A stretch of 20,918 nt of DNA from IMG/VR virus record IMGVR_UViG_3300044825_001900, positions 1-20,918 of that record. One strand, given 5' to 3'. The stretch is from a virus. Positions 6,025-17,403 of this stretch are shown one piece after another. How positions within the stretch are numbered: position 1 is the first letter of the stretch; every line of letters begins with the position of its first letter. A model generated the notes under the pieces. It did no database searches and was not told the origin of the DNA. It saw only the letters and a list, made by a program, of their open reading frames with translations. A program made the translations under genes and the position numbers.

Positions 6025-6552
6025 ATGGCAATCAGCTACACCACCACTCGAAACAAGCAGCACGGGACGATCACCATCTCGGACGGCACGGGCACGCCGA
6101 AGACGCTCCAGATCCCGATCTCGCCCGGCGACCTTCAGTTCTCCGCGGACCCGAATCCCGGCCAAATCGTGATGAACCGCGACGTGCTCTCGCACTGGAC
6201 CATCGCGCCGCAGACGCCGGTGACCGGTCGACTCTCGATCAAGTTCACCGAGTGGAAGGGCAAGGGACTGTCGGGCGCGAACCCGTCCGTCTACGACGCG
6301 ATGACGAAGACGGGCAACGCTTCGTCGTGGGTGTCGACATCGACGTGCGGGCCGTACACCACGGACATGACGTTCGCGATCGCCAACCCGTGCTCGGGTG
6401 CGGGAACGGGAATCGACCAGGCCGAGTCGCTCTTGTTCTCCGACGTTCGCTGGGGACCGTTCAACTTCGCCGAGGCGAGCGAAACGGACACGATCGAAAT
6501 CCCCTTCACCGCGCTCGTGACGGCTCCGAGCAGCACGCGGTCGGGGAGCTGA
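6025..6552 (+). CDS. Major tail (tube) protein
   Basis: 175 residues, ATG preceded by GAGG at five bases. Nearly all beta: TITISDGTGTPKTLQIPI, GDLQFSADPNPGQIVMNRDVLSHW, then the charged loop SIKFTEWKGKG and a final strand DTIEIPFTALVTAP. Major tail proteins of siphophages are beta sandwiches of this size that stack as hexameric rings to make the tail tube. Position between the terminator candidate and the assembly chaperone is the canonical one. No immunoglobulin-like extension is present. The product name relies on fold pattern and synteny more than on a motif. Confidence 0.72.
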   Translation: MAISYTTTRNKQHGTITISDGTGTPKTLQIPISPGDLQFSADPNPGQIVMNRDVLSHWTIAPQTPVTGRLSIKFTEWKGKGLSGANPSVYDAMTKTGNASSWVSTSTCGPYTTDMTFAIANPCSGAGTGIDQAESLLFSDVRWGPFNFAEASETDTIEIPFTALVTAPSSTRSGS

Positions 6553-6555
6553 TCG

Positions 6556-7143
6556 ATGCGCATCTCGGGAGAGCTTCCGCCGAAACCGAACACGCGCGAG
6601 GTCTATCTGCCGCGCGGCGAGACGCAGATCCGGCTCGTTCTCTCGCCCATGCCCCTCGGCCTCGAGGAACACATCCGCAACGTGTTCCCGCCGCCGCCGG
6701 CCGTGCGCGAGTACGAGTTCGACGCGCGCGGCGGGATCGCTCGAGGACCGGACAACAAGCCGCTCGAGCGATTCACCCGCGAGACAGCGTCGTGGACGAC
6801 GCATGCCGCACGGCAGAACCTGCGCAAGTTCGCGGTGCTCGTGCGCGAGGGCCTGCGCCACGATCCCGACATCCAGTTCGACGCCGACGGTTCACCAGGC
6901 AAGCCGACCGAGGAGAACCATTTCCCCGCGTGGACGGCGTACGCGGACGCGCTGCTCAAGGAATTCGAAGCCGCGAACTTCACGGCCGACGAGCTGGTGT
7001 TCCTGGTGAACGAACTCGCGAAGCTCACCGTGCCGACCGAGGCGTCGATCCGCGATGCGCGCGAACGTTTTTATCGGAGCCGGGGAATCGCCCCGGCGAC
7101 TGGAGCATCCCTCGAGATCGAGGGCGGTCCCTCCGCTACCTGA
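6556..7143 (+). CDS. Tail assembly chaperone, short form (lambda G-like)
   Basis: 195 residues, three bases after the tube gene stop, with GGGGAG upstream of the ATG. The sequence opens with a strand region (REVYLPRGETQIRLVLSPMP) and is then helical and charged (ARQNLRKFAVLVREGLRHDP, ELVFLVNELAKLTVPTEASI). It sits between tube and tape measure genes, where tail assembly chaperones lie; these bind the tape measure and recruit tube protein but are absent from the virion. The minus-one frame stays open past the stop at 7143 to 7280 and encodes a convincing C-terminal extension, so this is probably the shorter of two products. The last 24 residues or so after the slip site would be unique to the short form. 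Confidence 0.75.
   Translation: MRISGELPPKPNTREVYLPRGETQIRLVLSPMPLGLEEHIRNVFPPPPAVREYEFDARGGIARGPDNKPLERFTRETASWTTHAARQNLRKFAVLVREGLRHDPDIQFDADGSPGKPTEENHFPAWTAYADALLKEFEAANFTADELVFLVNELAKLTVPTEASIRDARERFYRSRGIAPATGASLEIEGGPSAT
7068..7097 (+). promoter_or_regulatory. Programmed -1 frameshift signal: T run plus hairpin
   Basis: Five T (7068-7072) are read in the zero frame as cgT TTT TAT. A P-site TTT codon can re-pair perfectly with TTT one base back. Four bases after the heptamer a perfect seven-base-pair GC hairpin follows: GCCGGGG (7079-7085), loop AATCG, CCCCGGC (7091-7097). Slip site plus nearby stem is the standard design of tail chaperone frameshifts. The A-site codon TAT would pair poorly after slipping, so the heptamer is not ideal. 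Confidence 0.65.
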
Positions 7144-7280
7144 TCTTCCGCGCCCTCGAGCGAGTCGACCCGGTTCGGATCTACGGCAGACCGTGGGTGC
7201 AGCTCACCCGTGAGGAGCAGGACGAGCTAGTGGCGTACGAGTCGGTTCGGGCCTACGAGAACTCACAGGGCGTGGAATGA
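7071..7280 (+). CDS. Tail assembly chaperone extension reached by -1 frameshift (lambda T-like)
   Basis: This is the -1 frame part of the long chaperone; if slipping occurs at the T run the fused protein has 172 + 69 = 241 residues. It has no start codon with a ribosome binding site of its own. Its sequence looks like a real domain: SLRYLIFRALERVDPVRIYG, then PWVQLTREEQDELVAYESVR and a charged end. A short helical domain with 'W..L..eeq.e..AYe.iR' is typical of the second part of siphophage chaperones, which in lambda gpGT contacts the tape measure. The stop TGA (7278-7280) overlaps the tape measure ATG at 7277, as expected in a coupled series. Confidence 0.68.
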   Translation, partial: LSEPGNRPGDWSIPRDRGRSLRYLIFRALERVDPVRIYGRPWVQLTREEQDELVAYESVRAYENSQGVE

Positions 7281-9160: not shown

Positions 9161-9784
9161 GTGGCAAAGATCCTCCGCCTCATCGTTCTACTGCTCTCCT
9201 GCGTCGGCCCGCTGATCCGGAAGCTCTACCGCCAGGCCACGCGCAAGAACGTCGTGATTCACGAGTCCTTCGTCGCGCCGTGCGAGAACGACGGCGGGCC
9301 GCGCGGCTCGTTCGTGGTGCAGTGCTTCGACAGCCTGGGAAACCTGAAGTGGAGCGAGGCCAACCACAACCAGATCAAGAATGCGGGCCTCGACTACGCC
9401 CTCAACACGTGCTTCCACGGCTCGGCCGCGATCACGACCTGGTACATCGGCCTGATCACCGCGGGCGGCACGATCACCACGGCCGGCGACACGATGTCCT
9501 CGCACGCGGGCTGGACGGAGAGCACTGCCTACAGCGACGCGACCCGTCGCGAGTGGACCGAAGGCGCATCGAGCGGCGGCGTGATCACCAGCTCGAGCAC
9601 GAGCGACTTCAACATCAACGCTACCGCGACCATCGGCGGCATCTTCGTGACGAGCGACAACACGAAGAGCGGCACGACGGGCACGCTGTGGTCGACGGCC
9701 GCATTCGCGACCGATCAATCCGTGAGCAGCGGCGACGTGCTGAAGGTCTCCTACACGATCACGATGACGGCCGGCGCGACCTGA
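9161..9784 (+). CDS. Tail structural protein with N-terminal hydrophobic helix
   Basis: 207 residues from a GTG with GGAG six bases upstream. The body matches a family common in siphophage tail clusters: NHNQIKNAGLDYALNTCF, TTWYIGLITAGGTIT, ADTMSSHAGWTE-like text (GDTMSSHAGWTESTAYSDA), FNINATATIGGIFVTSDN and the closing QSVSSGDVLKVSYTITMTA. These proteins are mostly beta and thought to be virion components, often just after the tape measure. Unusually, the first 30 residues contain a hydrophobic run (LRLIVLLLSCVGPLI) then a basic RKLYRQATRK, looking like a membrane anchor or signal sequence. No alternative start removing it has a comparable ribosome site. The role of that helix is unknown. 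Confidence 0.7.
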   Translation: MAKILRLIVLLLSCVGPLIRKLYRQATRKNVVIHESFVAPCENDGGPRGSFVVQCFDSLGNLKWSEANHNQIKNAGLDYALNTCFHGSAAITTWYIGLITAGGTITTAGDTMSSHAGWTESTAYSDATRREWTEGASSGGVITSSSTSDFNINATATIGGIFVTSDNTKSGTTGTLWSTAAFATDQSVSSGDVLKVSYTITMTAGAT

Positions 9785-9808: not shown

Positions 9809-12160
9809 GTGGTGACCTTCGTCCCGTCGCTGCTGGCGCCGGATGAGCTTCGCGAGTTCAACGGCTCCTACTACATTCCAACCCGCTCACGCCTCGTTGC
9901 GCGTGGGCGGGATGGTCTGCTTTACAGCCTCTATGGCTCGGTGAACGGGCAGGGCATCGCGGTGCTGCGGTGCGTCTGCTACTCGATCAACATCCAGACG
10001 CGCGCCGCGACGGTCGTCTGGGACCATCGCGTGGCCGCCGGCGAGTCGATGACGTTCCCGAACATCGACAACCCGCTCGGCGACGATCTCCACAACTCGA
10101 CGATCGCGATCGACTACAGCGGGACCGTCGAGCGCGTCATCGTCGTTATGCCGGTCAAGGTCGATCTCGGCGGCGGCCTTTTCAGGACCGACCTCCAGCT
10201 CTTCCACGTGCGCACGGACACTCCGGGCACGTTCACCGCGGGCGACTCGTTCCAGTACTCGGGGCCCGCCGCGACGGGCCTGGTGGGCCTCGCTCTGTTC
10301 GGCAGGAAGAACGGCAGCGGCGATATTTGGTGCGTTTACGGCGCGGCCGACGAAAGCGACACCGGCTCGAGCGTGGTGATCATGCGCTCGCGCACGGTCT
10401 CCTCGCCGACGGGTTCCTGGTCCTCGGCGACGACCGCGATCGGGGCGGAGACCTTCAGCGGGTACGCCGCGGCCGGCATCGCGCAGCACACCGACGGGTC
10501 GATCTACATCCTGTTCGGCATGGGCTTGAGCGGCTCGCGTCGACTCTCGCTCTATCACTCGCTCACGACGACGTCGTGGACGCTGGTCGGGGACATCAAG
10601 ACCTACGATTCCTCGATCAAGGAAGACTGGCTTTGCTACTCGCTGGTGGTCGATCTCTCGGGCGACCTCCACGCCGCGTTCTGTAATCGCGTCGAGTTCC
10701 CCGGCGTCGGGTCGGGCGCGAAGCAGCGGCTGCGATATATGCAGCTCACCTCGAGCGGCTCGATCGTCTCCGAGTCGCTGTTCCACGAGCTGCCGCTGTG
10801 GAATCAGAACGCGACGGCGAACAACCAGAAGTTCAACTTCTATCGCTCCGCGCAGGTCGCCGTCGACGACCGCGGCTATGCGCGCGTGATCACCAACCTG
10901 CGCGCCAACCCGATCGGCTACGAGCCATCCACCAAGACGACGTTCACCGACGAGACCAACCATTGGGGGTTGACCGTCGTCTACCGCGAGACGCCGACCG
11001 GCTGGGTGAGCTACCTGGCGACCGCCAAGCAGAGCCCGAACTCCGGCGATGAGATTGCCTGCGTCGCGGGGCACGCTGTTCCGCACGACGTCTGGGGCAT
11101 CGGCCGTCGAGGAGTGCCGGCGCTCGGCGAACTCTGGTGCGAGATCGTCTGCGTCAACACCGCGTTCCTCACGCCGACAATCATCTCGTGCGAGGCGCCC
11201 GGCTATCAGCTCCGCGTGATGGTGTCGGACGACTACGAGGGCAGTCTCTCGCGCCTCGCAGCCAACGCGCCCGCGGTCGCTGGCATGCTCGCGTCGAACA
11301 ACTTCCTGAAGCTCTTCCCGTCGAACTCGCTCCAAGCCACGCACGCAGCGACGCATCCCGGTACGTCGCTCGCCCGCGCGGCGGCGAACCTTCTCGACAT
11401 CTACGGCACGGTGGCGGCGGGCAAAGCGAAGCTCGGATCGACGCTCGCCAACATCGGCCAGAGCGTCACCGTGTTCCTCGATGCGCTCTCGAAGTGGAGG
11501 GCTGCCAACACCGGCGAACTCGGACAGAGCGTCACCGTCTCGCGCGTGATCACGATCGCATGCGGGAATTTCGTGAGCGGCTCGAACGGAATCGGCAAGG
11601 CGTTGCCGGTCGCCAACGAACTCGAGGTGAACCAGGGCGTCGTTCTCAGCGGCACGATCTACGTCACGGCAGGGAACACGGTCGAGGTCGAACACGCCGT
11701 CGCGATCGAACCCGTCGAGGGATGCGAGACGCTCTACGATCCGGAGATCGACATCGTCGAGGATCCGCGCTCGATCCAGTCCGTGATCTTCTCCGCGCCG
11801 CCGTCCTCACCGGTTCACTTCGTGACCCTGCGCCGCCCGGAGATCGGCAACATGGACGTGCTCGCGACGCAGGGCGAGTACGCACGCTCGCGCACGGGCG
11901 TGCCTCTGCTCGCGCGGCGAACGCCGTCGACGCGACGACTCGTGATGCAGTTCGAGCACCTCACGCGAAACCAACGCGCCGAGCTCTCCGACTTCCTCGT
12001 GCTCTGGCGAGGCACCGAGCTGCGGTTCCGCGATCACCAGGGCCGGACCTGGCGAGGGTACATCCTCACCGAAGAGCCGCTGTTCCGCTCGGGATCGGGC
12101 GGCACGGCGCAATGGTCGGTCACGCTGGAATTCCAAGGCGTCCTCGAGGCGGGTGTCTGA
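9809..12160 (+). CDS. Tail-tip protein A: beta-propeller-like domain plus C-terminal Dit-like domain
   Basis: 783 residues from GTG 9809, with AAGGTGG seven bases upstream. Residues 30-436 show about seven repeats at about 60-residue spacing, each with a strand-turn-strand core such as AAGIAQHTDGSIYILFG (about 221), YSLVVDLSGDLHAAFC (277) and SAQVAVDDRGYARVIT (347); the 'vavD..G.lh..y' pattern recalls BNR/Asp-box-type propellers. Residues about 540-640 hold short repeats of the type 'GQSVTV' and 'NELEVNQGVVL'. The end (709-779), RRLVMQFEHLTRNQ...ELRFRDHQGRTWRGYIL, resembles distal tail (Dit/gpM-type) beta sandwiches. The same layout recurs in the next gene. I infer a tail-tip component that docks through its C-terminus and presents a propeller for receptor or glycan binding. 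No catalytic residues are assigned. Confidence 0.65.
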   Translation: MVTFVPSLLAPDELREFNGSYYIPTRSRLVARGRDGLLYSLYGSVNGQGIAVLRCVCYSINIQTRAATVVWDHRVAAGESMTFPNIDNPLGDDLHNSTIAIDYSGTVERVIVVMPVKVDLGGGLFRTDLQLFHVRTDTPGTFTAGDSFQYSGPAATGLVGLALFGRKNGSGDIWCVYGAADESDTGSSVVIMRSRTVSSPTGSWSSATTAIGAETFSGYAAAGIAQHTDGSIYILFGMGLSGSRRLSLYHSLTTTSWTLVGDIKTYDSSIKEDWLCYSLVVDLSGDLHAAFCNRVEFPGVGSGAKQRLRYMQLTSSGSIVSESLFHELPLWNQNATANNQKFNFYRSAQVAVDDRGYARVITNLRANPIGYEPSTKTTFTDETNHWGLTVVYRETPTGWVSYLATAKQSPNSGDEIACVAGHAVPHDVWGIGRRGVPALGELWCEIVCVNTAFLTPTIISCEAPGYQLRVMVSDDYEGSLSRLAANAPAVAGMLASNNFLKLFPSNSLQATHAATHPGTSLARAAANLLDIYGTVAAGKAKLGSTLANIGQSVTVFLDALSKWRAANTGELGQSVTVSRVITIACGNFVSGSNGIGKALPVANELEVNQGVVLSGTIYVTAGNTVEVEHAVAIEPVEGCETLYDPEIDIVEDPRSIQSVIFSAPPSSPVHFVTLRRPEIGNMDVLATQGEYARSRTGVPLLARRTPSTRRLVMQFEHLTRNQRAELSDFLVLWRGTELRFRDHQGRTWRGYILTEEPLFRSGSGGTAQWSVTLEFQGVLEAGV

Positions 12161-14022
12161 TGGCTGGTTCGACGCAATTCGGCGGGCAGTCCGGGCACGG
12201 CAGCACGCCGACGCAGGGCGGGCGGCACGTCGTCCGCGGCACGAACGGCGTGATCTGGATGTTCGTCGACGAGACGTCGGGCCTCAACCACGAGCTGGTC
12301 TGCTACTTCGCCGGCACGGGTTCTCGCGTAGCGACGCGCGAGGTGGTTCGAGCCGCGAGCGTGCTGTCGATCCTCGGCGTCTCGTGCTGCGTCGACACCG
12401 ACGACCAGCCCGTCGTGGCCTACACCGAAGGCGCGACAAGCGGGATCAAGGTCTCGCGCCGCATCGCGGACGTCTGGACGACCGAAGCCTCGGCCGCGAC
12501 GTTCCACACCTCGATCGCGGCCCACCAGATCCTCTGCAACTCCTCGGGCGCATTCGAACTGATCTACGGCGACTATCGCTCGTCGCTCACACGGCAGCAG
12601 GTTCAGCACCGACGCTCGACGGATGATCTCGGAACATGGGCGGCGCCGACCACGGTCGACTTCAACGCCACCGCACTCACCGACGTGACGCAGGAACGCC
12701 GCGTGGCTGCTTGCCTTGACGCCAGCGACGCGATTCACGCCGCGTGGTCTATTCGGACGGGTTCCACGTGGAACGTCTCCTACGCGCTCTATTCGGGTTC
12801 CTGGGGATCGATCGAAACCGTCGACTCGCCGCCGTTCAACTCGCCCGCCCAGCAGCCGCGGTACATCTCGATCGCCGTTGACGGCAGCGCGCGCCCGACG
12901 TGCGTCTGGGTGAAGCAGGGCCGGACATCGGCGCCTGGCGTGACCTCGATCTTTCACAGCAGGCGCCACGGCTCGTGGTCGGGCGCGCTCCAGATCCACG
13001 ACGCGCCGACGACGTCGCAGGACAAGCCGAGCGTCACCGTCAACCAGGCCGGGTACTGCGACGTGTTCTGGATCGGCGATTCGATCGGCGGCGCGGCGAC
13101 GGGTCACGACTCGCTGATGCGAGCCTACGGCGACGGCTCCTCGTTCGCGTTCGCGCGGATCGTCGACCCCGGATCGAACGTCCGCCAACCCGAGACGCCG
13201 CACTCGTGGCGCCCTCACGGCCACGGCTTCTTCGATTCCGGCTACTGGTGCATGTACTACGCCGCGGGGTCGGTCGGCTTCGCGGAGTCGATCACCGGAA
13301 CGACGTGGGTGCACGAGCCCGAGTGCGCGAACGATCTCTCGGTGGCGCACGCCTCGAGCATGGCGGGAAGCGTGTTCGGCAACCGAAACCAGCTCGGCGT
13401 CGGGCAGACGGTCGGCGTGACGGTCGAGCGCACACGCGAGGCGAAGAACGAACTCGTGGCGAACCAGAAGTTCACCTTGCCGCGCGGCGGATCGGTTGGC
13501 CTGGTCGGGCAATCGGTGTCGCTCGCTGGCTCGGTCTGGGTGCGCTCGGCGGGCAACTCGATCGCCGCCAACCAGGCAGTCGGCCGCGAGTATCCACCGC
13601 TCTGCGAGACCGCCTACGTTCCGAGTCCCGCGCTTTCCGCTTCGGAGTCGGCGAGCGTCTACCTGGCCGGCCCGTATCCACTCGCGACGCGAGCGCTCAA
13701 GCTCCCAGCGCCCGCGCTCGGCGACGGCCGAACCGAGGTGCTCCGCATCATCACCCTGCGGTCGATGGGCGGCGAGATCCAGCAGGCGAAGAAGACGACG
13801 AACCTCAAGCGGTTCACGCTGCCGTACTCGCAGCTCTCGCGGCTCAAGGCGGTGGAGGTGCAGGACTTCTTCGACGCGATGGTCGGGGAGCTGGTGCGCT
13901 ACACCGACATCGACGGCATCGCATGGAAGTGCGCCGTGCTCTCGGCCGAGATCCGGATCGTTCAGAACGGCGACTACCACCACGGCCAGGTCGAGATCGT
14001 TCTCGAGGGCGAGGCAGTATGA
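12160..14022 (+). CDS. Tail-tip protein B: paralogue-like propeller plus Dit-like domain
   Basis: 620 residues from the ATG overlapping the previous stop by one base; a longer frame upstream lies inside the preceding gene. Six repeats at about 53-residue intervals start near residues 24, 75, 123, 183, 236 and 290 (GTNGVIWMFVDE, CCVDTDDQPVVAYTEG, CNSSGAFELIYGDY, ACLDASDAIHAAWSI, IAVDGSARPTCVWV, VTVNQAGYCDVFWIG), consistent with a six-bladed propeller. Residues 405-475 carry 'NQLGVGQTVGV', 'NELVANQKFTL' and 'GQSVSLAG' repeats like those of protein A. The C-terminus (550-620, KRFTLPYSQLSRLKAVEVQD...DIDGIAWKCAVL) matches the Dit-like end of A. Similar order but low residue identity suggests old duplication. 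Likely a tail-tip or adhesin subunit; ligand unknown. Confidence 0.65.
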   Translation: MAGSTQFGGQSGHGSTPTQGGRHVVRGTNGVIWMFVDETSGLNHELVCYFAGTGSRVATREVVRAASVLSILGVSCCVDTDDQPVVAYTEGATSGIKVSRRIADVWTTEASAATFHTSIAAHQILCNSSGAFELIYGDYRSSLTRQQVQHRRSTDDLGTWAAPTTVDFNATALTDVTQERRVAACLDASDAIHAAWSIRTGSTWNVSYALYSGSWGSIETVDSPPFNSPAQQPRYISIAVDGSARPTCVWVKQGRTSAPGVTSIFHSRRHGSWSGALQIHDAPTTSQDKPSVTVNQAGYCDVFWIGDSIGGAATGHDSLMRAYGDGSSFAFARIVDPGSNVRQPETPHSWRPHGHGFFDSGYWCMYYAAGSVGFAESITGTTWVHEPECANDLSVAHASSMAGSVFGNRNQLGVGQTVGVTVERTREAKNELVANQKFTLPRGGSVGLVGQSVSLAGSVWVRSAGNSIAANQAVGREYPPLCETAYVPSPALSASESASVYLAGPYPLATRALKLPAPALGDGRTEVLRIITLRSMGGEIQQAKKTTNLKRFTLPYSQLSRLKAVEVQDFFDAMVGELVRYTDIDGIAWKCAVLSAEIRIVQNGDYHHGQVEIVLEGEAV

Positions 14023-17185: not shown

Positions 17186-17403
17186 CCGCGACGCACGTAG
17201 CTGAGAATCGCATGGTCTTGGCTTCGAATTGGCCGTAAGGGATGGCGAGCGCGATGGTTGCGCCAAGCGCGATCTGTAGCTGGGCGGTAGTTGGGCGATC
17301 GCAAACCGAATCTGCTACCACGACTGCGCCGATCCCATGGAAACGCAGAGCGTCGCGCTGCCCCTGGAAAAAAAGAAAAGTGTAGCTCGGCGGTGCAACG
17401 AAG

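Follow-up and report, generated by a model that had tools for sequence, protein, structure and literature searches.

It is a well-known arrangement in phages that a minority longer form of the tail chaperone is made by a −1 slip, proposed here for a short U run beside an RNA hairpin. The lambda products G and GT are found in a ratio of 30:1 (PMC5009743), and tail chaperone shifts measured elsewhere amount to 6–7% (PMC3711429). Tetramers of the form Z_ZZ.N can act alone in E. coli, given a strong stimulator (Sharma et al. 2014, PMC4066793). In that host A_AA.G, then U_UU.C, then U_UU.U are the three most shift-prone of these, the six active tetramers yielding 0.26–5.6%, and the same three predominate among the tetramer sites of IS1/IS3 elements (PMC4066793). 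The spacer between motif and stimulator is usually 5–8 nt, with 4–10 nt allowed (PMC4066793). PRFect lists a slip motif named 'five' that was found in its set of annotated frameshifts, mostly tail chaperones (PMC10885494).

Organization of the locus

The window, that is, the whole stretch of DNA analysed, is a virus record of 20,918 bases with a GC content of 66%. An earlier note on this DNA had proposed frameshifting of the lambda G/GT type within a tail assembly chaperone gene. The ORF in question lies between a putative tail tube gene and a putative tape measure gene, and an overlapping −1 extension runs directly up to the latter. As the note had described, the extension frame is open to 7280 and reaches the tape measure start, its stop codon (7278–7280) overlapping the ATG at 7277. 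The assignment of the ORF as a putative chaperone derives from its position alone, and the protein may represent an orphan chaperone family flagged by gene layout alone.

Table 1. Coordinates of the features of the chaperone locus within the window.
Feature	Position	Strand	Basis
Putative major tail tube protein	6025–6552	+	Position only
Putative tail assembly chaperone, zero-frame product, G-like, 195 aa	6556–7143	+	ORF list, position, codon usage
Slip motif U_UU.U (Z_ZZ.N tetramer); T run reaches 7072	7068–7071	+	Sequence, rarity, re-pairing
−1 frame extension FLSEPGNRPGD...SQGVE, putative T-like domain	7068–7280	+	Open frame, codon usage, stop/ATG overlap, no usable start
Spacer TATCGGA, 7 nt	7072–7078	+	Sequence; inside the usual 5–8 nt and the allowed 4–10 nt (PMC4066793)
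Putative stimulatory hairpin GCCGGGG-AATCG-CCCCGGC	7079–7097	+	Perfect 7-bp GC stem, 7079–7085/7091–7097, loop AATCG
Second perfect hairpin CCCTCG-AGAT-CGAGGG, 6-bp stem	7109–7124	+	Fold computation
Putative tail tape measure protein, 624 aa	7277–9151	+	Size, position, helical/hydrophobic make-up from sequence

Neither the chaperone nor the tape measure protein matched a Pfam or PHROG family, and no family match was obtained for the tail tube protein. When homologs of the chaperone, extension, tube and tape measure were sought in phages as well as in viral and genome contigs, none was found besides one record, the only one to share these genes, which is 100% identical to the window over 14,311 bases. 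Searches of phages and of viral and genome contigs with the capsid, hub and minor head proteins returned the identical record, chance matches and very distant neck1/minor head matches, and a search with one motif of the extension gave no further relative with a homologous chaperone. A match between Serratia phage Tsm2 and a window protein was rejected as due to chance. The AlphaFold model of the chaperone had a mean pLDDT of 46 and was unusable. The proposal of a lambda G/GT-type frameshift is supported in its layout, its −1 extension and, as described below, slippage of one tRNA, but no sequence similarity to established tail chaperones was found in Pfam, in PHROG or with the neck1-linked chaperone profile described below.

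The identical record bears also on the possibility of an assembly or sequencing indel, in which case the true genome would hold one T more and encode a continuous gene of 241 aa. A single extra T would indeed fuse the two frames, and the second record might come from related data; against this, the two records agree without a difference over those 14,311 bases, and the hairpin and lambda-like layout have an explanation of their own. An indel is accordingly regarded as highly improbable.

Coding in the two frames

The frames were compared by a score for codon usage, for which the other genes of the window served as the training set. In the zero frame the score was strongly positive to about position 7050, while in the −1 frame it was negative ahead of the slip site and mostly positive from about 7126 to the end of the frame. 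Between 7066 and 7126 the score was uninformative in both frames and hence does not show precisely where the shift occurs. The −1 frame is open from 6252 onwards, yet its openness upstream of the site is no evidence of coding because DNA of 66% GC often contains long spurious frames.

The extension has no plausible independent start; neither an ATG nor a well-placed ribosome-binding site for a separate gene was found. That ribosomes nevertheless reinitiate past the TGA at 7141–7143, on a CTG at 7140 or a GTG at 7197, and translate it as a small gene of its own would agree with the CTGA overlap at 7140–7143 and with −1 codon usage that turns positive only from around 7126. Such a gene would lack an ATG, however, the nearest GTG leaves only 26 aa, the GAGG motif lies 16 nt from the CTG and is too far from it, and reinitiation leaves the T run and the stem unexplained, making this reading very unlikely.

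The slip site

The zero frame of the chaperone reads CGT TTT TAT at 7066–7074, thus crossing five T (7068–7072) as the earlier note had reported, and this run is the sole TTTTT on the + strand of the 20.9-kb window. T_TTT occurs in frame at one of 5463 codon positions in the window, and shift-prone tetramers as a class at 30 of them. The remaining genes also make little use of the codons involved in the shift (TTT, 3/5298; TTA, 1/5298; TAT, 17/5298). At U_UU.U, tRNA-Phe re-pairs at all three positions in the −1 frame, on an identical codon. The decoder of Tyr UAU re-pairs with UUA at just one position of three, in keeping with the note's remark that T_TTT_TAT does not allow good A-site re-pairing, and Arg CGU on ACG is absent from sites with at least two re-pairing matches. 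The site consequently contains an in-frame Z_ZZN with cognate re-pairing on ZZZ (T_TTT), but not a canonical X_XXZ_ZZN heptamer allowing re-pairing in the P site and the A site alike.

Reading the site as the tetramer U_UU.U, separated from the stem by 7 nt, is preferable to treating it as a defective heptamer that ends 4 nt before the stem; the heptamer register T TTT TAT assumed earlier is wrong. With U_UU.U, only tRNA-Phe must re-pair. Nor is the label "non-standard" given to the site supported, since U_UU.U belongs to a recognised bacterial −1 class (PMC4066793) that recurs among tail chaperones (a tetramer is the only motif in 7 of the 45 loci surveyed below). To judge by its name, the 'five' motif of PRFect (PMC10885494) also resembles the window in having five identical bases at the junction of the zero and −1 frames.

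The T run could in principle act during transcription instead, slippage of the polymerase inserting one U and giving CGT TTT TTA TCG, which encodes an identical peptide. Five T is short for such an event, as described cases use Tn with n > 8 (PMC3711429), and transcriptional slippage has no need for a hairpin at ribosome-type spacing. We consider it extremely improbable that the fusion arises in this way.

Downstream structure

The note's perfect 7-bp GC hairpin with a 5-base loop was confirmed 4 nt past TAT, which is 7 nt past the slippery UUU. On its own this hairpin, whose stem is G-C closed, has a folding energy of −14.6 kcal/mol, and the fold of the 55 nt downstream has a z of −2.3. The loose hairpin rule of Sharma et al. 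(PMC4066793) is passed by 62% of random codon positions in the window and does not discriminate in this GC-rich DNA; the rarity of compact hairpins was therefore used instead. A compact hairpin as stable as that at 7079–7097 lies 4–10 nt downstream of 23 of the 5463 codon positions (0.4%). The number of coincidences of a prone tetramer with such a hairpin expected in the ~25-codon 3′ overlap is ~0.0006, a figure calculated post hoc. Judged by the signal rules of PMC4066793, the U_UU.U motif conforms, as do its 7-nt spacer and its G-C closed stem, the strong structural stimulator falling within 4–10 nt of the motif. The second hairpin might add to stimulation. No Shine-Dalgarno-like stimulator was found at the proper distance upstream of the slip site, and no pseudoknot partner was found for the loop AATCG.

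A −1 shift elsewhere in the chaperone gene is unlikely. P-site re-pairing is allowed at G_GGA_ATC (7083) and at T_CCC_TCC (7128), and both tRNAs can re-pair at T_TTC_CCC, a canonical heptamer at 6921–6927 in the chaperone zero frame, 147 nt ahead of the T run. However, codon usage remains strongly that of the zero frame for ~120 nt beyond T_TTC_CCC, G_GGA at 7083 falls inside the stem, and T_CCC at 7128 does not figure in PMC4066793 as a shift-prone tetramer and has no hairpin comparable to the one at 7079 placed after it.

Proposed mechanism

The elements at 7068–7097, their rarity and the switch in codon usage make it highly likely that the extension is expressed by programmed −1 ribosomal frameshifting of the lambda G/GT kind at U_UU.U. 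The majority of ribosomes would terminate at 7143 and produce the 195-aa chaperone. A few per cent, by our estimate, would pause as the hairpin meets the mRNA entry, and a single Phe-tRNA on UUU at 7069–7071 would slip onto the overlapping UUU at 7068–7070. Reading would then continue through UUA UCG GAG, giving a predicted chaperone-extension fusion of 241 aa with the junction ...RERF-LSEPG.... The slip would most likely occur while Phe-tRNA occupies the P site and the A site, whose codon UAU is a rare one here, is still empty. Alternatively, UUU could be in the A site at the moment of slippage, and the junction RERF-LSEPG would be identical.

P-site slippage is modestly favoured over A-site slippage because the stem then begins at about +11, counted from the first base of the P-site codon. 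Stem-loops 11–12 nt downstream block the entry of A-site tRNA (PMC7282821), and the position in the window is consistent with such a block, subject to a possible one-nucleotide difference in how positions are counted. The earlier note had offered P-site slippage or an unusual mechanism; slippage of a single tRNA is supported, whereas a need for an unusual mechanism is not, U_UU.U being a known shift-prone tetramer.

The proposed signal differs from that of lambda G/GT (PMC5009743) in that its motif is a tetramer, not a heptamer, and in that the proteins of the locus are unrelated by sequence to any family searched. It is like the Z_ZZ.N signals of IS1/IS3 elements (PMC4066793) in its U_UU.U, its strong stimulator 7 nt downstream and its G-C closed stem, but here the signal would be used in a putative phage tail chaperone and has a simple hairpin, whereas IS3 has a pseudoknot.

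Comparison with neck1-linked loci

The neck1 protein was used to reach distant phages, and loci combining a chaperone-like ORF and its −1 extension with an ORF of tape-measure size were collected. Forty-five neck1-linked viral loci showed the window's gene layout, −1 overlap included; these pairs were hand-picked from an automatic list by frame and closeness to the tape measure ORF, and the counts are approximate. The zero-frame overlap contained a canonical heptamer in 33 loci, GGGGGA(A/G) in 3, a shift-prone tetramer only in 7 and nothing recognised in 2. T_TTT is the sole motif, before a hairpin, in two of the 7 tetramer-only loci. One, L053, reads TCT TTT ATC with an 8-bp stem after 7 nt; the other, L085, reads CTT TTT ACG with a stem after 5 nt.

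Both loci (GC 63%) resemble the window in gene layout and in a T_TTT slip with a hairpin close downstream. Linkage assigns the proteins of L053 and L085, which have no detectable homology to the window protein, to a single large chaperone family in which AAATTTT, TTTTTTN, AAAAAAC or GGGAAAC serve most of the remaining members. Neither the window chaperone nor its extension matched a profile of this neck1-linked family. L053 and L085 thus provide analogy rather than conservation for the window site, and their occurrence within a mostly heptamer-using family suggests that U_UUU alone can suffice. A more general scheme is put forward tentatively, as a possibility we ourselves doubt: in GC-rich phages the chaperone shift may be reduced to a single Phe-tRNA slip on U_UUU in the P site, with a compact GC hairpin ~11 nt on and a rare UAU keeping the A site empty, and this reduced lambda-type signal may have been reached independently in several chaperone families (those of the window, L053 and L085). 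In five other loci (L017, L034, L038, L047 and L099) A_AAG stands immediately ahead of the zero-frame stop codon of the tail chaperone and is likely the slip motif of the overlap, another type of single-tRNA site.

Taken together, these data point to a very probably genuine frameshift that belongs with that of lambda G/GT and has a slip site of a minority but recognised class. This class is not new, having already been measured in bacteria, and is placed here in a putative phage tail chaperone gene. The site would offer a clean natural tail-chaperone shift barred from two-tRNA slippage, which could separate P-site from A-site models of single-tRNA slippage. The survey also suggests that, in this group, about one such site in four would escape annotation tools limited to XXXYYYZ heptamers (12 of 45 loci are without one).

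Other features of the window

A heptamer G_GGA_AAC is present in frame at 9337–9343 in the ORF at 9161–9784, where the −1 frame stops just 11 nt beyond the zero-frame stop and leaves no evident extension. An A-rich run (17368–17376) separates the + strand ORFs from a − strand gene cluster, and no terminator-like site was found at it. The proteins encoded at 9809–12160 and 12160–14022 have a C-terminal domain of ~174 residues in common (26% identity, E 9e-13) and, from this sequence similarity, are likely duplicated tail-tip modules.
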